A stretch of 64,000 bases of DNA from Anabaena sp. UHCC 0204. Lineage in GTDB: Bacteria; Cyanobacteriota; Cyanobacteriia; Cyanobacteriales; Nostocaceae. The stretch lies in contig NZ_VIKW01000007.1 of NCBI RefSeq assembly GCF_009711975.1, positions 62,001 through 126,000 on the forward strand. The letters are read 5' to 3'. The notes beneath the pieces were generated by a model, which did no database searches, had not been told where the DNA came from, and worked only from the letters and a program-made list of their open reading frames with translations. Positions within the stretch are counted from its first letter, which is position 1, and each line of letters begins with the position of its first letter. Shown in pieces: positions 8,815 to 43,223 of this stretch. A program made the position numbers and the translations under genes.

Positions 8815-9260
8815 GTGGGAAACTCAGTCACTTTAGTGCTGAGAGGGATGGTTCGACGCAGCTCACCAGCCGCGACTCAAGCGGGTTTAACCGCTTTGAA
8901 TATTTCTTCATTACCGCCTTGGAATCGGAAAATTTGGGGTACTTTTGTGATGTACTTTCAACGGGACAATTACCGATTCAAATTTTCCAACTCTGTACGC
9001 ATAATGTATTGCTCCGAAGTGCCTCCCATTTCTGGGGTAATGTTAGCTTTGACCAGTTATCAGAGCTTGTTAGGCTTGCAACACTGTTCCAGTGACCTTA
9101 GAACTGTTTAATCACAAGCGACAGAGCAGGGGACTAGCTACGCATCCACAGGGTGTCGTGACTCAAATAACGGCTACCGTGAGAGTAAACTCAGGGTGGT
9201 CTGGTCAGCACGGCTTACTTGATTACTCTTGCAAGCCCAGTCCCTTTAGGGCTGGGTTAC
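8815..9260. mobile_element. Probable non-autonomous IS200/IS605-type element
   Basis: Two look-alike 21-base hairpins bound this ~440-bp stretch: 8823-8843 (CTCAG, spacer, CTTTAG loop, CTGAG) and 9236-9256 (CCCAG, CCC, TTTA, GGG, CTGGG). They share the pattern CYCAGTCMCTTTAGKGCTGRG apart from a few bases. Imperfect subterminal palindromes are the hallmark of IS200/IS605 ends. The right hairpin is preceded by AAGCCCAG and followed by GGGTTACTGAC, like many IS605-type right ends. The inside (9110-9230) looks highly structured, and no TnpA or TnpB frame is recognisable. Confidence 0.45.
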
Positions 9261-9544
9261 TGACAGATTAAATAATTATTTTTAATTCAACACAGAAATT
9301 GTCTCACAAATGCCACTCATATATGCCTAAACTGGCAGTACGCCGGGAATTATTATTTCTTGTATACGAATAAACTAATCTGTGTCAGATGTAAACATAC
9401 AATAGTTGTTGATCTTGTCAAAAAAGTTAACTAACAATATAATCGAATTATTCTATTATATCAGAATTCTCATATTGCCTGTATATCTAAAGTTAAATTT
9501 ACAGTAATACACAACCGCATAATTTCGACTCAGGAGTTCAAACT

Positions 9545-22337: not shown

Positions 22338-22404
22338 GGAACCGCCCGAACAATAGTCCGGGCGGAGTGTGGTGTGAGGAGTGAACGGAAACATTTGTCT
22401 CCGC
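22338..22404 (-). ncRNA. yfr1: Yfr1 small RNA
   Basis: The three parts of Yfr1 are visible on the minus strand. First is a 5' hairpin (CGGA...TCCG, 22388-22403). Next is the single-stranded core ACTCCTCACACC (22371-22382 region). Last is a strong 3' hairpin CCGCCCG/CGGGCGG (22342-22365) that acts as terminator. TACAAT lies seven bases upstream of the inferred 5' end, a fitting -10 box. Location between guaB3 and trxA is the known conserved position. Yfr1 is an Hfq-independent antisense regulator whose core pairs with mRNAs such as porin messages in marine strains. The exact ends are inferred. Confidence 0.93.
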
Positions 22405-34899: not shown

Positions 34900-34923
34900 A
34901 GAGACGTTCCACAGAACGTCTCT
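34900..34923. terminator. Bidirectional hairpin terminator
   Basis: Ten-base stem AGAGACGTTC/GAACGTCTCT with a four-base loop. On the minus strand it is followed by ATCTTATTTTTC, a U-rich tail. It would end transcripts of the peptide-precursor genes and possibly of the hydrolase. Confidence 0.7.
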
Positions 34924-34978
34924 ATATAAAATTAGATTGAATCAAGATCGTACAGTATTCAAAGTTGAGTCCATTAGA

Positions 34979-35167
34979 TTACCAACGACGATAGCCACCA
35001 CCCCAGCGTGGACGACCCCAGCCACCACCCCAGCGTGGACGACCCCAGCCACCACCCCAGCGTGGACGACCCCAGCCACCACCCCAGTAGTGACCACCGG
35101 AGAGTAGTTCCTGATCTTCTGCGGATAATTCAGTCAATAACTCAGATGAAATGTTTTGATCTGACAT
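34979..35167 (-). CDS. Double-glycine leader peptide precursor with Gly/Trp/Arg/Pro repeat core (CTB-type bacteriocin-like)
   Basis: 62 aa. The leader (~1-25) contains ELLTELSAEDQELLSGG, the double-Gly cleavage motif shared with the other four precursors nearby. The predicted core of 37 residues is HYWGG followed by three perfect GWGRPRWGG units (a 27-bp DNA repeat) and GYRRW. It has no Cys, Ser or Thr, so lanthionine or disulfide crosslinks are impossible; Trp, Arg and Pro dominate. GAGGTG lies nine bases before the ATG. Processing is likely by the C39 peptidase exporter at 37298-39466. Antimicrobial, signalling or structural roles are all possible. Confidence 0.72.
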   Translation of the reverse strand: MSDQNISSELLTELSAEDQELLSGGHYWGGGWGRPRWGGGWGRPRWGGGWGRPRWGGGYRRW

Positions 35168-35674
35168 AATTGTTCACCTCAATTAATAGTTTAGAGTTTA
35201 CTCACTTAAATTAAGTAAGTGTTAAGTTTGTAATCCTCTCTTCTATTTGTAAATATGTTTGTTGAAAATTCACTTCTCCTAGAGTTAGAATTAAAAAAGA
35301 TAAAAATATAGCTTTTGATTAGGCTAAATACATTTTCGATTATAGTGATTTATCTCCCAAGTAATACAGCTATTAAATCAGCATAGAATCTTAGAATTAG
35401 GATTAGTAAAAACCAGAAGATATTCTGATATTTGCTGATTTAATAACATTTGATATAATTCAAAGATTACAGATTGCATATTCTAAATTACAATATATCC
35501 GTTACATAAGTCAAACGTAAAAGTTATATCCCGCAAGAAACTGAATTTCCTGACGGGATATAACAAAGATCATCTTTAGACAACTAAATCACCTAAAAAT
35601 CTATGGCTTCAGCCTGGTTATGTTATCAGTTGTTGAAGGACAGAGGTTAGGCATTCTTAGTTACCTTATTCATC
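35168..35674. other. Spacer between peptide-precursor genes
   Basis: About 500 bp, AT-rich. 35529-35564 contains a loose inverted pair (ATATCCCG...CGGGATAT) that may end the upstream transcript. No further leader-type frame was found. Confidence 0.4.
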
Positions 35675-35905
35675 CTAATAGCGACCTCTGTCATCATCAT
35701 AGCCACCTCTGTCATCATCATAGCCACCTCTGTCATCATAGCCATTTCTGTCATCATAGCCACCTTTTTGTCCACCGTAGGATTTTTTGGGATAGCAATC
35801 CCAGTAACATTTGCGGACACATCTTCTTCTTCCCCCAGATAAAAGTTCCTGGTCTTCGGTGGATAATTCTACAAGCAAATTTGATGTAGTGATTTGAGAA
35901 GTCAT
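35675..35905 (-). CDS. Double-glycine leader peptide precursor with Cys motif and Gly-Tyr-Asp repeats
   Basis: 76 aa from the ATG at 35905. Thirteen codons further upstream is an alternative, but GAGG and the leader start MTSQ match the sister genes. The leader NLLVELSTEDQELLSGG ends at ~25. The core starts RRRCVRKCYWDCYPKK, with three Cys in nine residues, then runs into GGYDDRNGYDDRGGYDDDRGGYDDDRGRY (four to five repeats, cited as the unit GGYDDDR). The basic, Cys-containing head and acidic repetitive tail are of opposite charge. Export by the adjacent C39 ABC transporter is inferred. Confidence 0.72.
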   Translation of the reverse strand: MTSQITTSNLLVELSTEDQELLSGGRRRCVRKCYWDCYPKKSYGGQKGGYDDRNGYDDRGGYDDDRGGYDDDRGRY

Positions 35906-36250
35906 GATTGTTAGCCTCACTAATTTACTATAGATGTGTGGCATCTATTAATTTATTTATAACTATTTTTTTTATGATAGTAATTCGCCCATAGTTATAA
36001 ATACGAAAGATTTCTTTTATTTCTTATGGACTATTATAGTAGTTATTAATTTATAACTGTATTTATTGAATAAGATAAATTACATGTAAATAATTTCAAC
36101 TAACTATTTTGATCAATAAAATACACCCATAATATTTACATATCTTGATGGGTGCAAAATTATAACTACGACCTTGATATATTCTTCAAATTGGTGGGTT
36201 TCCAGTAGTCAAACTTATTTCCAAATCATGGAAATAAAAGAGATGACTAA
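35906..36250. other. Spacer between peptide-precursor genes
   Basis: 345 bp, AT-rich. The GTGAGGCTAACAAT leader of the 35905 gene begins here. I saw nothing else. Confidence 0.4.
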
Positions 36251-36505
36251 TTAGGCTTTGATATAAAATTTGGGGTTATAGATAGTGGGACGGTAAACTA
36301 AAAAGTTATATTTAGATTTACCATCTTTCTTTTGACATTCATCATCATCATCATCATCAGAGGAAGAAGAACCGTTAAATCTACCCCCATTAAATTTACC
36401 GTTTTCTTCTTCATGAGAAGGACTATAGCGCCCTCCAGTTAATATCTCTTGTTCATCTGTTGATAAGTCAACAATTAAATCCGATTGCATGACTTGATGT
36501 GACAT
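36251..36505 (-). CDS. Double-glycine leader peptide precursor with Asp-rich core
   Basis: 84 aa from the ATG at 36505 (MSHQVMQSDLIVDLSTDEQE). The leader ends in EQEILTGG. The core carries NGGRFNGSSSS, a run of six Asp, one Cys, and a Tyr/Pro-rich C-terminus (VYRPTIYNPKFYIKA). GAGGTTAATGATC precedes the ATG, the same upstream pattern as in the sister genes. The acidic run could bind cations. The function is unknown and assignment rests on the leader and context. Confidence 0.7.
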   Translation of the reverse strand: MSHQVMQSDLIVDLSTDEQEILTGGRYSPSHEEENGKFNGGRFNGSSSSDDDDDDECQKKDGKSKYNFLVYRPTIYNPKFYIKA

Positions 36506-36913
36506 GATCATTAACCTCATTATTGATTTATAAAGGTGAAAAACACCTTTAACTTTATTTATAAATATAAAGTCTAAATATTTAATTCACCTAAAGACAT
36601 AATATCTTATGCCAAAAAATCAACCTGATTTACTACTCCATGAATATCCTCATATTTTCTACCATGCTCAATAATTCTCAATTGGGCATTAACTACAACC
36701 TAAAACAACGGTTCTAGCGACCAAAATACATAGAAATGGTGAAAATATGATAAGTAGGTAGATGCTAATCAACCCAACTATGTAACGAACTGTAAATTAC
36801 CCAAAACTCTTGGGATTGCTGCGTTCCACTCCGTTCCACTCGCAATGACATAGTTATAAGTTTTCCCACCTACCTACTTACTTTACATCGAGAGGGAGTT
36901 AAAAAACAACTAA
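36506..36913. other. Spacer containing a MITE-like element
   Basis: About 400 bp without a gene. 36751-36880 is the MITE-like element described separately. The rest is AT-rich. Confidence 0.5.
36751..36880. mobile_element. MITE-like element with 11-bp terminal inverted repeats
   Basis: Ends TAAGTAGGTAG (36751-36761) and CTACCTACTTA (36870-36880) are exact reverse complements enclosing 108 bp. The inside holds GGGATTGCTGCGTTCC and CTCGCAATGACA, a pattern common in Nostocales spacers. There is no coding capacity. It sits between two peptide-precursor genes. Confidence 0.7.
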
Positions 36914-37246
36914 CTAAGAGAATAAATATTTAAATAAAAGCATTAAATTATTATTCTGTTTGTTAGTATCAATATTATTTAATTGTCCCATTCCCAAGTT
37001 CATAGGAATAATCATGGTGATTTGGGAAAGTTTATATTTAGTATTTTCTGAACTAGAATCACCTGCTGCAAGATTTAAATTATTGTTACCTTCGGTTTCG
37101 ATATCAGTTTTCTGGAAAAATAAATTTCCCTCATCTAATCCTTCCCCGAACATAGAGGATATTTGTCCACCAACGAGAGATTCTTGTTCTGCTTCAGACA
37201 GAGATATGAATAATTGAGGTTGATTGAGTTGAGTATTGTAAAACAT
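36914..37246 (-). CDS. Double-glycine leader peptide precursor, long acidic/hydrophobic core
   Basis: 110 aa. The leader LFISLSEAEQESLVGG ends at ~27 and fits the shared LSxxxQExLxGG pattern. The ~83-residue core is Asn/Gly-rich with acidic stretches (FGEGLDEGN, DSSSENT) and ends in a hydrophobic NLMLLFKYLFS. No Cys. It lies 51 bp downstream of the exporter gene on the same strand, so it is the precursor most likely co-transcribed with it. It lacks the GTGAGG upstream motif of the other members. Confidence 0.68.
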   Translation of the reverse strand: MFYNTQLNQPQLFISLSEAEQESLVGGQISSMFGEGLDEGNLFFQKTDIETEGNNNLNLAAGDSSSENTKYKLSQITMIIPMNLGMGQLNNIDTNKQNNNLMLLFKYLFS

Positions 37247-37297
37247 ATTGTTATGGGTTGAAATAATCAGTAAATAAAGAACTTAATAACTATTGAT

Positions 37298-39466
37298 TTA
37301 TACAGTTAAAAACTGTAGATGTTCTCCCGGTTTTGATAAAAATGTATCAGGAGTTCCTTGAATTTGTACTTGACCTTTTTCTATCAATACAATCCAATTA
37401 GCGCGATGGATAACACTCGGACGATGGGTAATTAAAATTGTGGTTTTTCCTGCACGATATTCCAAAAGACGATCTAGAACATGAGCCTCACTCATAGGAT
37501 CTAGTCCGGCTGTAGCTTCATCTAAAATGAGTATAGGTGGATTTGTGAGAATTCCGCGAGCGATCGCTAATCTTTGTCTTTGTCCACCAGAAAGATTTGC
37601 GCCAAATTCTCCTAATACAGTTTGATATTTATTAGGTAATTGACTAATAAAGCCATCTGCGTCAGCAATATCACAAGCTCGCACAACTTCTTCAAAAGAA
37701 ATAGAAGGTGTTCCTAATTGGAAGTTTTCTAAAATTGAACGACTCCAAAAATGAGGTTCTTGGGGAACATAAACTACTTGTTGTCGTAAACAATCTAAAG
37801 CGATATCTTGCATATTAAAAAAACCGATGCGGATATTACCAGAATCTGGTTGATATAACCCAGCCAATAATTTAGCTAAAGTGCTTTTACCACAGCCTGA
37901 TTTACCAATTAAAGCAATTACTTTTCCCCCAGGAAGCTGAAGAGAAAAATCATCTAGTAAATCCACTCTTCCGGGGTGATGAAACTTGATATGGGAACAA
38001 CTAATATCTGCATGACTAGAAATTTGGGCGATGGGTTTTTGACTACCTCCTACTACTTCTGGTGTCGCATCAATCACTTCTAATAATCGAGAAACTGCGG
38101 TTTGAGAGCGAAAATATTCATCAACAAAGCCAACTAATGAGCTAATTAAAACTAAAACATTAACTTGTAAAGCATTAAAAGCTAACATTTGTCCAATACT
38201 TAAATTACCTCGAATAACTAAAATACTGCCAAATCCTAGTAAGACTACACCACCAACTGTAGATAAAAGTTTAGCCACAGTCCCGTTAATAATTGCTAAT
38301 TGAATTGTACTAAAAGTCAGATTCGCTAGACGACCAAAACGACTTTGAAATTCATCCCAAAATTGAGGAGCGGCATTTGTAGTTTTGATTACCTGTGCGC
38401 CTTTAAATGTTTCTACTAAAACCCCTTGATTTTCTGCTCCTAACACTAAAAGACTGCGAGTTTTTTGTTGGAGAATGGGTAAAAAAGGTAAAGTAGATAA
38501 AGTCATTAAAGCAGCAATTAATAGAACTGCTATTGTTAATTGCCAGCTATAAAATAACATTAAACCTAAAGAGATAACAGCAATAAAAAACTGGCTGGGT
38601 AACACAATCACAATTTGTGATACTAATTGATTAATTTCACTAATATCTCTCAATCGGCTAGTGATTTCCCCACTTCGTCGAGATTCATAATAATTTAGTG
38701 GTAATTGGAGAAGTTTCCGCCCAAATTCTAGAACTAAACCTAATTGTAATCTTTGTCCAAAGTGAGAAATCATTAAAGATTGAAATACTTGTAAACCTCC
38801 ACTAAATAAACTCATGATGATAACGGCAGAAACCACAACTGTCAGTAATTGTACATCTCCCCGAACGAGAACATCATCTGTTAATAATTGAATCAAAACA
38901 GGAGTTCCTAAAGCTAGTATGCCAAGAACAATATTGATCATTAAAACCTGAGTTAGTAAGCCACGATAGGGTAGAATGCGGCGAAAAAATCGCATTATTC
39001 CACCTTTCGATTCTTCTTGAGGTTGATCAAAAAATCGCTCTGGATCTGGCTCTACTAAGAGCATGACTCCATTCCAAGCCGTAGTTAATTCTTCTTTGGT
39101 GAGATAACGAATGCCGACAGCAGGATCGGCAATTACGTATTTTCTGCCTTTTTTACCATATAAAACTACCCAATGATAGCCTTGCCAATGGATAATTGCA
39201 GGTAATGTAATTTCTGTGATTCTGTCTATAATTTCTGGGGAAGCTTTGACGGCTCTAGCATTAAAACCAAGATTTTCTGAGCCTCGTTTTAATCCTAATA
39301 AAGTTGTTCCTAGTTGTCCAGTTCCCACGGCATCACGGCTTTTATTCATACTTAAAAAGCGCCCATAATGCTTGGTAATGGAAACTAGACAAGCTGCTCC
39401 ACAGTCTTCTTCACTTAACTGTAAAGTACACTTGTATTTTTGAGGACTTTTGAAGATATTGAACAT
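37298..39466 (-). CDS. Peptidase domain-containing ABC transporter (C39 leader-cleaving exporter)
   Basis: 722 aa, full length for a bacteriocin/peptide exporter. The C39 peptidase domain (~8-140) has Cys22 in SEEDCGAACL, His98 in QGYHWVVLYG and Asp114 in IADPAVG. Six membrane helices follow (~165-470). The ATPase has Walker A GKSGCGKST (near 520-530), signature LSGGQRQRLA (near 625-635), and ILDEAT. It should cut peptides after GG leaders and export the cores with an HlyD-type adaptor and TolC. It lies 64 bp after the HlyD gene on the same strand. Five GG-leader genes flank it. Confidence 0.92.
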   Translation of the reverse strand: MFNIFKSPQKYKCTLQLSEEDCGAACLVSITKHYGRFLSMNKSRDAVGTGQLGTTLLGLKRGSENLGFNARAVKASPEIIDRITEITLPAIIHWQGYHWVVLYGKKGRKYVIADPAVGIRYLTKEELTTAWNGVMLLVEPDPERFFDQPQEESKGGIMRFFRRILPYRGLLTQVLMINIVLGILALGTPVLIQLLTDDVLVRGDVQLLTVVVSAVIIMSLFSGGLQVFQSLMISHFGQRLQLGLVLEFGRKLLQLPLNYYESRRSGEITSRLRDISEINQLVSQIVIVLPSQFFIAVISLGLMLFYSWQLTIAVLLIAALMTLSTLPFLPILQQKTRSLLVLGAENQGVLVETFKGAQVIKTTNAAPQFWDEFQSRFGRLANLTFSTIQLAIINGTVAKLLSTVGGVVLLGFGSILVIRGNLSIGQMLAFNALQVNVLVLISSLVGFVDEYFRSQTAVSRLLEVIDATPEVVGGSQKPIAQISSHADISCSHIKFHHPGRVDLLDDFSLQLPGGKVIALIGKSGCGKSTLAKLLAGLYQPDSGNIRIGFFNMQDIALDCLRQQVVYVPQEPHFWSRSILENFQLGTPSISFEEVVRACDIADADGFISQLPNKYQTVLGEFGANLSGGQRQRLAIARGILTNPPILILDEATAGLDPMSEAHVLDRLLEYRAGKTTILITHRPSVIHRANWIVLIEKGQVQIQGTPDTFLSKPGEHLQFLTV

Positions 39467-39530
39467 AAACGTTAAAGATTTAACATTAATAAAACTGGTG
39501 AGAATATGGAATTGTGCTGTTGCTTAATTT

Positions 39531-41039
39531 CTATAAGTCCGTGATTAGTCTGCCTTTTCTGAGAATAAATTTCATGACAGTTTCCCTCCGGGAAATAATA
39601 TCAGCGCGTCCTTCCATACCAGATTTAAGATGACACAAGCGATCGCCTTTCCCTAGATATATATTTTCTGGTTCAATATTGACTTCGTAAGTAGATGCTT
39701 GGGGTGTACTTGGAACTAAATTGTTTTGTACTATGGCTACAGCATCTGGTGCAACTGCTTTCACAGTTCCATTGAGAGTTCCATACTCTGGATAGGGACA
39801 AGCGGAAACTTGCATTTTTACGGCTTGATTGACTTCCACTTTGTCAATATCTTTTGCAGAAACACGAGCTTTGATTACTAAAGGAGCATCAAGAGGAGCA
39901 ATTTGAGCGATCGCTTCACTGATTTGCACTACCTGTTCAGAGTTGCGGAGTTTCAGTTGCATTAGTGTCCCAGTTGTGGGAGAACGAATTACACTTTTAT
40001 TCAAGTCATTTTCTAGTTGTTGTAATTCTTGACGAGCGCGAATTTGTTGTTTTTGTAGTTCTAATCTTTGCTGAAATAATGTCTCTCCTTCTTTTTGTAA
40101 AGCAGCTAAAGTAGCTCTACCCCTAGACTGTTCTTGTTTAATTCTTTCCGATGCTACTGTGACATTGGCATTACTAGGATTAATCGCAATTTTGGCTTTT
40201 TGTAGGTTTATTTTAGCTAATTTTACAGCTTGTTCTTTTTCTTCTTGGAGATTTTTAGAACTAGATTTAGCTTGTTCTAATTTGGCTTCAGCCGTTTTTA
40301 CAGCTTGTTCTTTTTCTTCCAGTAAATTCTGAGATATTGCTCCTGATTTCACTATCTCCTGCAAGCGATCGCGCTGTAATTTAGCCAAATTTAAGCTTGA
40401 TTCTGCCTCTTTTATAGTTGTTTCTAAAACCTTCTCTGTTTGTAATCTTTTGAGTTGTTCCTGCGCTAATTTCAAAGCTACTTCCGCTTGTCTCATTTCC
40501 GCATTCGCTTGAATTCCCTGATCTTTATAGTTGCGTTCACTACCAGTTAACTCAGCTTGTGCAGCTATAATACTGCGTTCATTTAAATTAGTTTGAGCAA
40601 GTATTTGAGCATTGACTTGATTGATTTGAGCATTAACTTGATTGATTTGTAATTGATTTTTCTCAATAGTATTTTGCAGTTGTTTTTTCTGAGATTGTAA
40701 TTGGGAATCATCAAGATAAGCAATTATTTCTCCCTTATTGACAAACTGATTTTCCTTGACTGCAATCTTTCTCACCGTTCCCGTCATTGCAGATTCAACT
40801 AACCGTAACTCTCCCAATGGTCGAATAGTTGCAGGAACTTTAACTGTGACATTGTAATTGAGGACAGATGTGAGACTGACAGCAATTACAAAGATACTAA
40901 TCATCACCCCCCCACCAATATTGAGCCATTTACCAATATGGGGAAGAAACTCATTAGCTTGTAGTATGGGCAGATCCTCTGGAATCGTCTCATTTAAACG
41001 ATTCCAAGAATTGTTGTCTTCACGCTGTAACGAGTTCAC
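39531..41039 (-). CDS. HlyD family secretion adaptor
   Basis: 502 aa with a GTG start and AAGGTG upstream. Single membrane helix at ~42-62, then a lipoyl-like half (VRKIAVKENQFVNKGEIIAYLDD, cited in part), a long coiled coil (~110-370, with repeats INQVNAQINQVNAQI and EEKEQAVK), and the second lipoyl/beta-barrel part (SGTLMQLKLRNSEQVV-like PTTGTLMQLKL onward). It links the C39 ABC transporter at the inner membrane to an outer-membrane TolC-type channel. It forms a two-gene operon with the transporter. No TolC is in the window. Confidence 0.9.
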   Translation of the reverse strand: MNSLQREDNNSWNRLNETIPEDLPILQANEFLPHIGKWLNIGGGVMISIFVIAVSLTSVLNYNVTVKVPATIRPLGELRLVESAMTGTVRKIAVKENQFVNKGEIIAYLDDSQLQSQKKQLQNTIEKNQLQINQVNAQINQVNAQILAQTNLNERSIIAAQAELTGSERNYKDQGIQANAEMRQAEVALKLAQEQLKRLQTEKVLETTIKEAESSLNLAKLQRDRLQEIVKSGAISQNLLEEKEQAVKTAEAKLEQAKSSSKNLQEEKEQAVKLAKINLQKAKIAINPSNANVTVASERIKQEQSRGRATLAALQKEGETLFQQRLELQKQQIRARQELQQLENDLNKSVIRSPTTGTLMQLKLRNSEQVVQISEAIAQIAPLDAPLVIKARVSAKDIDKVEVNQAVKMQVSACPYPEYGTLNGTVKAVAPDAVAIVQNNLVPSTPQASTYEVNIEPENIYLGKGDRLCHLKSGMEGRADIISRRETVMKFILRKGRLITDL

Positions 41040-41868
41040 GACATCGCACCTTATATTAGGACTAGAATATGCTGTTCTGAGATTTAAGTGGCAAATATTA
41101 TGGAATAAAAAAGTAACTATCCCAGGTAGTAAATTATCAGAAATAAAAATCAGGAAATACCTGTATTCAGATTATTCACATTGTGGAAACTACTTTGATA
41201 ATGGTTTATAATTAAGGAAGGGGTAGAGAAAGTTTTGCCAGGAAAATGCAAATTAACTTTCTCAAATCTTTAACGCCTAAAAAGCGTAAAGAAAATAGAG
41301 GAGAACGCTCAAACTCTCTCAAAGTCCTCACTTACGTTGAGCGAGTTATTATCATCTCCTCTAACCCCTTTTTTATATTTCCAAAAAGTTAGCCCAAAAT
41401 TTACAGCTATTTTCAGGAATATGAACCACATCTTGATTAAAATTTCATAGCAAGGAGGAAAGAAGGCAAGAGATTAATTTTGAGTGTGGTCTAAATACAT
41501 AAAAATTGCTGTCATCAAAACTTTGAGCCGAGAGGTTATCTTGTCTAGGAAATGATGATTTGAGTAGACATGATCTTGAAATTGGTTTTCATTTGCATAA
41601 ATAAAGATTCCAGAGACTGATTCAATCATGCAGTCATCCCATACGCATCCAGTTAGATGAATCGGGTTTTGCATTTATTGAACATGGCAGGAAAACTCTG
41701 GAATCTATCTTTTGCCTAATTACACTAGTCAGCGCGGCAAAAATAACTAACCATTAAAAATTAATAAACAGCTTGGGAAATCTGCTTTTTTAATTTCTAA
41801 TTTCGCCCTACGGTACTAGTTTAATCCTGCATTGAAATAGGGCAACTTCTAGCCTGAGAAGTCTATAT
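41040..41868. other. Spacer within the peptide island
   Basis: 829 bp. It contains an open frame of 66 codons on the minus strand (41474-41674) without a ribosome-binding site or recognisable leader, so it is not annotated as a gene. A small hairpin ACTTCT/AGAAGT at 41846-41862 may end the transcript of the upstream precursor gene. Confidence 0.4.
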
Positions 41869-42225
41869 CTAGATCACCAGTCCAGACTGAGTTGCATCTC
41901 CTTGATCTATACCTACAGCAGGTGGTGTAACGACTCCTCCAGATCCTTCGGTTGGTAACACTGCTGATCCTAAAGGTCCTACACCAAGAGGAATGTCTCC
42001 ACCCAAACCTAAGAAATCTTGTGCCGCAGTCAATATGGTATTAGCACGACCGGCGGAGGTTGCAGTGCTACCTTGTGGACCAGAGGTGCTTGTTCCTAAT
42101 AAAGCTGATCCTCTATTCCCGTAATTACTAGCAGCTAGTTCAAAATCAGCCCCACCAGTGACTATCTCTTGTTGTTCATCAGATAATGCAATCAACAAAC
42201 TGGAAGTATTCATTTGATTTGACAT
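41869..42225 (-). CDS. Double-glycine leader peptide precursor, Gly/Ala/Ser-rich core
   Basis: 118 aa from the ATG at 42225 (MSNQMNTSSLLIALSDEQQE). The leader ends in EQQEIVTGG at ~25. The ~93-residue core is rich in Gly, Ala, Ser and Thr (GTSTSGPQGSTATSAG, LGLGGDIPLGVGPLGSAVLP) and ends DATQSGLVI. No Cys. GTGAGGCTAATAATT directly precedes the ATG, as in the 35905 gene. It lies upstream of the exporter operon by 830 bp. The core resembles glycine-rich pore-forming or class II-like peptides only in composition. Confidence 0.7.
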   Translation of the reverse strand: MSNQMNTSSLLIALSDEQQEIVTGGADFELAASNYGNRGSALLGTSTSGPQGSTATSAGRANTILTAAQDFLGLGGDIPLGVGPLGSAVLPTEGSGGVVTPPAVGIDQGDATQSGLVI

Positions 42226-42515
42226 AATTATTAGCCTCACTTACGTAAATAGGTGTTTGACCACCTAATAATTCAACTATAAGCATTGTTGCTTAGGAAT
42301 TCATAAACCTACAGGTAGAAAGTAGAGTTTACAAATTTACCTCTATAAGTAGAGACAAAATAGTTTATGCTTACTAAAATAGGAGTATTATAAAAATAAT
42401 TTTATTCTAGAAAATCTGCCTAATATTTATTTTTATAGAGAAGTCGGATTATATTGATTGATAAAAATTCTCCACTCCCTAAAAAATATAGACATCTCTA
42501 ATTTTCCAAGCATAT

Positions 42516-43223
42516 TCAGTAACTAGAAAGTAGCTGCGTTAACATATAAGCACAGACAGCACTACCGATAGGAACTGTTAAATTATCTACACCTAAAAAA
42601 GAAAATGCTTCTAAAATCGTAGCTATTAAGGCGATAATTAACGAGATTATCCAAGTTTGCCAAATATTTCCTTGGGTAAGGAGTAAAATAGTTACACAAA
42701 TCAAATAACTAACTAAAGTGACGGTGAAAGAACCTTCCCAGCTTTTTTGAGAACCAAAAATTATATATTTATGTTTGCCAAAGCGTTTACCAATTAAAGC
42801 CGCTAATCCATCACCCCAAGCCATAATCATAATTCCTAAAACAGCATATTGTGGTTGGTGTAAATGCCAAAAACCAGCAACTAAAACACCAATACTCACA
42901 GCATAGAAAAATGTTCCCAAACTGTGACGACCAACGCTATTAATCCCAGGAAGAATGGGGAATTTATAAGATAATAAAGTGACAATACTGGCGAAAATCG
43001 AAGCTGTAATTCCCACAAATGGGGGAATATCTAACCACCAAGCGATAACAATAACGTTACCTGTGCCAATATGCACGATTTTACGAATAATTTCTGGTTC
43101 GCTATGAGGAAAACGACTAACCACCCACGCAACGCAAATAATAAATCCTACCCAAGCCGCCGCGGGGGCAATTTGCAGCGACAATGGGTAAAGTGTTTCT
43201 AAATTGAGGAATATATTAGACAA
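42516..43223 (-). CDS. Diacylglycerol/polyprenol kinase family protein (phytol-kinase-like)
   Basis: 235 aa with a TTG start; GGA lies five bases upstream and no ATG is available nearby. About six or seven membrane helices. [10 protein letters not shown] (~46-55), [22 protein letters not shown] (~129-150, quoted in part) and [18 protein letters not shown] (~155-172) match the CTP-dependent dolichol/phytol kinase superfamily. Phytol kinase salvages chlorophyll phytol for tocopherol. Which prenol this one uses is not decided by sequence. It is divergent from yidD with a 52-bp spacer. Confidence 0.82.

Follow-up and report, generated by a model that had tools for sequence, protein, structure and literature searches.

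Double-glycine precursors with ordered core families and a shared 5′ element around one C39 exporter in Anabaena and its relatives

A 64,000-nucleotide stretch of DNA from Anabaena sp. UHCC 0204 (contig NZ_VIKW01000007.1, here C77, positions 62,001 to 126,000, of a 5.74-Mb genome) was analyzed and is referred to as the window. Its positions 34,979 to 42,225 encode, all on the minus strand, five small precursor proteins (P1 to P5) with leaders of the double-glycine (GG) type, an ABC exporter with a C39 peptidase domain, and an HlyD-type adaptor. The locus is of the kind described as group III cyanobacterial bacteriocin gene clusters (Wang, Fewer and Sivonen 2011, PMC3140520). Two properties are added here: core families that recur at ordered positions of the array, and a short inverted repeat, the 5′ element, in front of many precursors with unrelated cores. 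As to function, we consider it about an even bet (probability ∼0.5), by analogy with a studied system, that interchangeable cores leave the cell unmodified through one dedicated exporter and are surface or matrix proteins rather than classical bacteriocins. (Numbers preceded by L, G, and C denote loci, genomes, and contigs of this survey.)

Results

The original prediction, made from the sequence alone, had described five minus-strand genes sharing a leader that ends in LSxxxQExLxGG. The five leader ends (LSAEDQELLSGG, LSTEDQELLSGG, LSTDEQEILTGG, LSEAEQESLVGG, and LSDEQQEIVTGG) have this ending in common, except that a position given as L is occupied by V in P5. A leader motif composed after inspection of the leaders matched, among the open reading frames (ORFs) with an ATG start, exactly P1 to P5 in the 64 kb; 100 first-order Markov resamples yielded no match to it, nor to a stricter motif, which recovered three of the five. 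Over the last 18 leader residues, pairwise identity is 44–83%. The cores had been said to have nothing in common, which is true of the five in the window (all-versus-all BLAST returned self matches only) and untrue across genomes, where the same core types recur. Membership in the CTB family (NF038167; cut-off 32 bits) applied to P5, which scores 75.7 bits across the full profile, and not to P1 (21.7), P2 (21.3), P3 (24.8), and P4 (15.1), which stay below the cut-off and match mainly the leader part; no other precursor family was matched by P1 to P5 in the NCBIfam search. Median dN/dS of the core was 0.34 for P4 (117/120 pairs, 16 loci) and 0.42 for P5 (15/15 pairs, 6 loci), ratios that show both precursors to be under purifying selection.

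The order of transcription is P5, HlyD, exporter, P4, P3, P2, P1. P5 (41,869–42,225; 118 amino acids) ends 829 nt before the HlyD-type periplasmic adaptor (39,531–41,039; 502 amino acids, GTG start; HlyD_3, 56.6 bits), which is followed after 64 nt by the short-type C39 exporter (37,298–39,466; 722 amino acids; Pfam C39, 120 bits, plus ABC_membrane and ABC_tran) and, another 51 nt on, by P4 (36,914–37,246; 110 amino acids), the conserved core of which is modeled as a long β-hairpin. P3 (36,251–36,505; 84 amino acids) is Asp-rich and carries a C-terminal FLVYRP motif common to relatives, P2 (35,675–35,905; 76 amino acids) has a Cys/Arg/Tyr motif and GGYDDDR repeats, and P1 (34,979–35,167; 62 amino acids), the last gene of the array, consists of the leader and a Gly/Trp/Arg core with three copies of GWGRPRWGG. 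Shine-Dalgarno spacing places the likely starts of P2, P3, and P5 at 35,905, 36,505, and 42,225, respectively; that of P2 is the ATG just past its 5′ element. With these starts, the gaps are 408 nt (P4–P3), 345 nt (P3–P2), and 507 nt (P2–P1). P4 is probably cotranscribed with the exporter, the other precursors probably being separate units. Promoter-like and terminator-like sites across the region were not more frequent than in shuffled sequence, and the same applies to the terminator-like hairpin found 3′ of P1. The DNA of the P1 core (34,993–35,087) is made up of 3.5 tandem copies, 100% identical, of a 27-bp unit, which makes a recent change in copy number likely.

Core families and their order in relatives

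The view that one secretion machine serves a diversified set of peptides, with leaders conserved in related genomes, was borne out. In all 15 congeners searched, which with that of the window make 16 genomes of the genus, the exporter is present at 90–93% identity (in G006 over residues 1–516 only) and at least one leader ORF lies beside it. The closest named exporters (91–93% identical) are mostly from Anabaena, Dolichospermum, Cuspidothrix, and Trichormus records.

Arrays were surveyed in 57 loci with an exporter identity of at least 73%, 50 of them named records and seven from other genomes (that of the window included). Counting ATG starts only, 45 precursors lie upstream, 139 downstream, and seven on the opposite strand, and 49 loci have at least two. 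Because of this restriction, at least 10 CTB genes were missed (L049, L054, L056, L059, L066, L068, L071, L109, L115, and L131). No precursor was counted in L070, L080, and L112, of which L080 and L112 end soon past the exporter and have the upstream 5′ element. L070 (Cuspidothrix issatschenkoi) has an exporter 91% identical to that of the window and, within 10 kb, neither a leader ORF with an ATG start nor a 5′ element; it may have lost its precursors or contain an overlooked type.

The core types of the window recur across these genomes as conserved families, and their positions are ordered. CTB precursors stand upstream of HlyD and P4-like ones adjoin the exporter, the latter (directly before or after it) also in Gloeocapsopsis, Leptolyngbyaceae, Fischerella, Scytonema, and Brasilonema records. 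The middle of the array holds Asp-rich, Cys-rich (CYQSPPPCC, RCYKKCYW), and mixed types, and its end a Gly/aromatic/Arg-His core such as that of P1. A P1-type core is present in 25 of the 42 loci with two or more downstream precursors, and it is the last gene in 23 of these 25 (8.3 expected; exact P = 6 × 10−10, a value that is descriptive, since the thresholds defining the type were set post hoc and the loci are related). The repeat unit of the P1-type cores varies by species (GWGRPRWGG, RGGFRRGGF, GYGRGYGHH, HGGHWGHGGRWG). Their composition, in contrast, is maintained, as would be expected if selection acted on bulk properties.

GG precursors on the opposite strand inside the array were seen in L054, L056, L066, L067, L072, L131, and L077, six of the seven with a KGVLEGTGDFVYGGRTFPATF-type core. 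They have another hairpin-like repeat upstream, of the type TTAGCTAG...CCAGCTAA.

A 5′ element shared by precursors with unrelated cores

The 5′ element has the form (C)ATAGGTG-N4..7-CACCTAT-..-GTAAGTGAGG, with the ATG ∼8 nt further on. In the window (minus strand throughout), it precedes P5 (42,233–42,270; TAGGTG-GTCAAA-CACCTA, the exact pattern), P3 (36,513–36,552; AAAGGTG-TTTTT-CACCTTT, a predicted hairpin), and P2 (35,913–35,950; ATAGATG-CCACA-CATCTAT), each time together with the Shine-Dalgarno sequence. For P1, a different hairpin, of nine pairs, is predicted. A covariance model (R1) was built from 28 segments picked by exact inner arms, from loci that were later rescanned; it scores the three elements at 48.2, 32.9, and 24.1 bits, respectively, those of P5 and P3 being in its training set. 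Searched on both strands, 53 sources with 1.09 Mb in all gave 133 R1 matches at E ≤ 0.5. Of the 105 at full length, 91 lead into a leader ORF as defined by a loose motif, and many of the other 14 run into ORFs that start leader-like but are diverged or cut short.

In the whole-genome scans, the model scored a subset of the first-look candidates, 150 for each genome (150 of 4,766 in that of the window) and 47 in the family scan. Within this scope, the window's genome gave three matches at E ≤ 0.5, upstream of P5, P3, and P2, and none elsewhere; in 11 genomes of the genus, 19 of 23 matches are in this locus, the other four having E values of 0.0096–0.30. Among 33 further loci, R1 matched two, L080 (exporter 83% identical) and L112 (79%), and not L070. 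A tree of the exporters from the window, two paralogues of its genome, and 77 of 80 named loci (80 tips) places all element-bearing loci in one clade of 47 (support 0.937), 44 of which have the element. The three that do not are L070, L074 (cut short, and not searched with R1), and L077 (a partial match); both paralogues lie outside the clade.

At E ≤ 0.001, the element was found in 62 of 145 Nostocaceae genomes and in 25 of 56 genera. Twenty places were chosen from this family list and read (two of them on contigs already covered, by their length those of L100 and L076): 19 lead into leader-like ORFs, 18 of which end in GG and one in AG, L157 being the exception. In L156, L164, and L165, the element lies at least 70 kb from the presumed main locus on the same contig. 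Precursors behind such distant or further elements have additional core types, for example (RD)n-YKCRYCYDC and GQFPGGQPPT repeats. (RD)n runs ending in YKCRYCYDC or near variants were seen in element-led precursors of L156 (∼73 kb from the presumed main locus), L158–L162, and L175.

Rfam has no family matching the element (positions 34,900–42,600, E ≤ 1); a sub-gathering match over the P1 repeat (E = 0.19) was taken as chance. The exact pattern TAGGTGN4-7CACCTA occurs at one other place in the genome, C33:302474, which lies, as judged by eye, inside a fatty-acid-synthase-type gene and is not an R1 match. A general scan for upstream hairpins beat shuffled sequence (P ≤ 0.1) for only some genes of each class, for example 54% of the first upstream ones (n = 24) and 36% of the later downstream ones (n = 86). 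Elsewhere in the window, HEARO RNA and Yfr1 small RNA were found above gathering scores at 9,037–9,264 and 22,340–22,404 (minus strand).

An inverted repeat at this place may act as an RNA hairpin or as a DNA operator bound by a regulator, and the operator is a serious contender, if not the one we favor. As expected of a protein-binding site, the inner AGGT/ACCT is nearly invariant, and of 70 distinct sequences with both parts, 67 have them 7 or 8 nt apart; the folding z-scores of the three elements in the window are modest (−0.8 to −2.0). Covariation was assessed in two alignments that had been fitted to the R1 structure and of which one, A2, includes reverse-strand matches to the palindrome. 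In A2, changes on both sides occur at five of seven pairs and in 55 cells (shuffle mean 19.7; 0 of 500 shuffles as high), which speaks against the operator. A5 points both ways. Its 13 both-sided cells exceed the number in every one of 500 shuffles, but only two of its pairs changed on both sides, a number that 463 of 500 shuffles reach as well. Pairing at the innermost position is lost in 19 of 98 A2 cells and 6 of 19 A5 cells. Two further properties fit an operator less well: the place of the element is fixed just before the Shine-Dalgarno sequence (in 16 of 19 cases, the ATG begins 8 nt further on), and in L165 both arms are kept across a loop of ∼40 nt. (The loop there was enlarged through a palindromic insertion.) On the strength of this loop and the fixed place, we lean toward an element that would act as RNA.

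Exporter, adaptor, and neighboring genes

The exporter and the HlyD adaptor lie among the precursors as originally described. The C39 domain comprises residues 10–142 (Pfam), and the protein aligns over residues 6–710 with a peptidase-containing exporter of solved structure (4ry2). The only other ABC match on C77 is at 163,262, ∼62 kb off. The gene content is that of group III, namely HlyD and a short-type exporter, with neither LanM nor another ABC transporter that lacks a peptidase domain; the assignment was made by these characters. Group III clusters likewise combine HlyD beside a short-type C39 ABC exporter with several precursors (3.89 on average) of variable cores, and the diversity of the cores has already been stated for them (PMC3140520).

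The absence of LanM, YcaO, or other tailoring genes from the locus had been correctly predicted. No tailoring gene was seen there (radical SAM genes elsewhere in the genome were not searched for). The genome contains one LanM match, at C33:102958–104097, ∼1.5 kb from another C39 exporter and not in this locus, so that the locus lacks the hallmark of a lanthipeptide cluster; with no YcaO match in the genome, it also lacks that of an azole-forming one. In a search of nine congeners, six were without any LanM match, despite the fact that all nine carry the locus. Cys-rich cores are present in LanM-free congeners (G005, locus L057; G008, locus L048); lanthionine formation is therefore not general.

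ORFs of at least 35 amino acids were clustered, and the clusters were judged by eye. Among those shared by at least six of 48 loci, no conserved immunity or tailoring gene was recognized, a survey that tiny or fast-evolving immunity genes could escape. The shared clusters comprise the precursors, an upstream protein (42,516–43,223 in the window; no Pfam match at 1e-10), an α/β hydrolase, and, beyond, amino-acid-kinase and redoxin genes; the remainder were taken by eye, and not singly checked, as antisense or overlapping frames. Six proteins, the exporter not among them, matched no defence-system profile.

The genome contains two further C39 exporters. One (L146, C33:99347–104097), a paralogue with 60% identity, has the LanM match beside it and belongs to a separate lanthipeptide-type cluster. 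The other (L065, C3:71715–76214; 63% identical) is accompanied by four GG precursors, three of which have a different leader of the type SNLFTxVTVEQQEIVTGG; no match to the 5′ element model was found there.

Discussion

In the arrangement proposed here, each precursor gene would have two parts, a head shared with the others and a free tail. The GG leader, the Shine-Dalgarno context that the genes have in common and, for P2, P3, and P5, the short 5′ hairpin would form the head; the tail would be one of several core families. We infer that the C39 domain binds the leader and cuts after GG, and that the core would then be exported by the ABC/HlyD machine without tailoring by the genes seen in the locus. 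A TolC-like outer channel, encoded elsewhere, is presumed for exporters of the ABC-HlyD class, and the final step would presumably use such a channel. Outside the cell, the cores would act as surface or matrix proteins: P4 and P5 as β-hairpin proteins that could assemble, and the P1-type cores as cationic Gly/aromatic/Arg-His polymers. AlphaFold models the P4 core as a long two-stranded hairpin (strands 42–58 and 64–79) and the P5 core similarly (28–49 and 52–73), with block pLDDT values mostly between 74 and 88 in the strands. More tentatively, the 5′ hairpin may define a regulon of secreted peptides across Nostocaceae, such that any core behind a head of hairpin, Shine-Dalgarno sequence, and leader would be a coregulated export substrate in a cassette with fixed head and free tail, and the element alone would find orphan precursors at a great distance from the main locus.

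The nearest precedent is Synechococcus elongatus PCC 7942, in which four GG precursors, EbfG1–4, are exported by the C39 transporter PteB and have a role in the biofilm matrix or at the surface, with amyloid for EbfG1–3 (PMC4997328, PMC9981879). For the mature EbfG proteins, these papers report no homology to known proteins; the cores described here, in contrast, include the conserved P4 and CTB families in addition to low-complexity polymers. This precedent, together with the lack of a recognized immunity gene, makes a surface or matrix role the better bet.

An arsenal of bacteriocins or cationic antimicrobial peptides directed against competing cyanobacteria and other bacteria is the less likely explanation. 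It is suggested by the name of the CTB family, of which P5 is a full match, by the mean net charge of +5.5 of 26 P1-type cores, many of them rich in Trp, Arg, and Gly, and by the induction of Nodularia CTB genes under phosphate starvation, which the authors of that study read as allelopathic. It is at odds with the survey of 48 loci, in which no conserved immunity gene was recognized, with the strongly acidic and Cys-rich cores, which are unlike membrane-active peptides, and with the finding of a membrane-span-like stretch in only 4 of 184 cores. The bacteriocin label is not established, and the 290 putative cyanobacterial precursors listed by Wang et al as bacteriocins were mostly of unknown product (PMC3140520).

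That the exporter releases cues between cells or along the filament is improbable. HetC of Nostoc PCC 7120, likewise a C39 peptidase ABC exporter, is needed for heterocyst differentiation, and signaling substrates have been proposed for it (PMC10986499). However, HetC has an N-terminal cyclic nucleotide-binding domain, which has no counterpart among the 25 of 26 Pfam families listed for the exporter; that paper reports no precursor gene near hetC; and low-complexity cores that change between species would be poor receptor ligands. Even less credit is given to secreted peptides that bind metals or handle copper. P1 has a weak match, below cut-off, to a copper-binding octapeptide repeat profile (E = 0.013), some relatives are His-rich, and many cores contain Cys, but P1-type cores, although they share one array position, have anywhere between 0 and 15 His residues, and P1 itself has only one.

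Several observations weigh against surface or matrix cores and against the cassette proposed for them. The likeness to EbfG and PteB is one of gene anatomy. The quality of the P4 and P5 models is moderate (mean pLDDT 64 and 66), and a fold search with the P4 model against solved structures gave 561 matches at E ≤ 10 but none at E ≤ 0.001; its weak matches to stems of pore formers were not used. Pairing of basic with acidic cores in a complex coacervate was considered and dropped, since acidic runs showed no link to P1-type cores: loci with such a core have them in 15 of 25 cases, and loci without one in 12 of 17. As for the cassette, neither P1 nor P4 has the element (P4 gave no match to the model), its exact inner form AGGTG..CACCT precedes only 40 of 191 precursors scanned, and 83 of the 145 family genomes gave no match.

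Compared with the original prediction, three things are new: a 5′ element common to several precursors, an ordered layout, and conserved core families. The abstract, Results, and Discussion of the group III paper (PMC3140520) mention neither the core families and array order nor the element, and the openly available papers searched, as judged by titles and the beginnings of abstracts of those listed, gave no account of the layout or of the element, the latter being absent from Rfam as well. Being linked to the leader, the element offers a core-independent handle for annotation; it also brings distant precursors to light and renders coregulation testable. If the cassette is real, it would let lineages swap types of extracellular polymer. 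With its conserved P4 and CTB proteins and its closing Gly/aromatic/basic polymer, the ordered array provides a concrete alternative to the bacteriocin label for these bloom-forming genera, namely that such loci may supply material of the cell surface.

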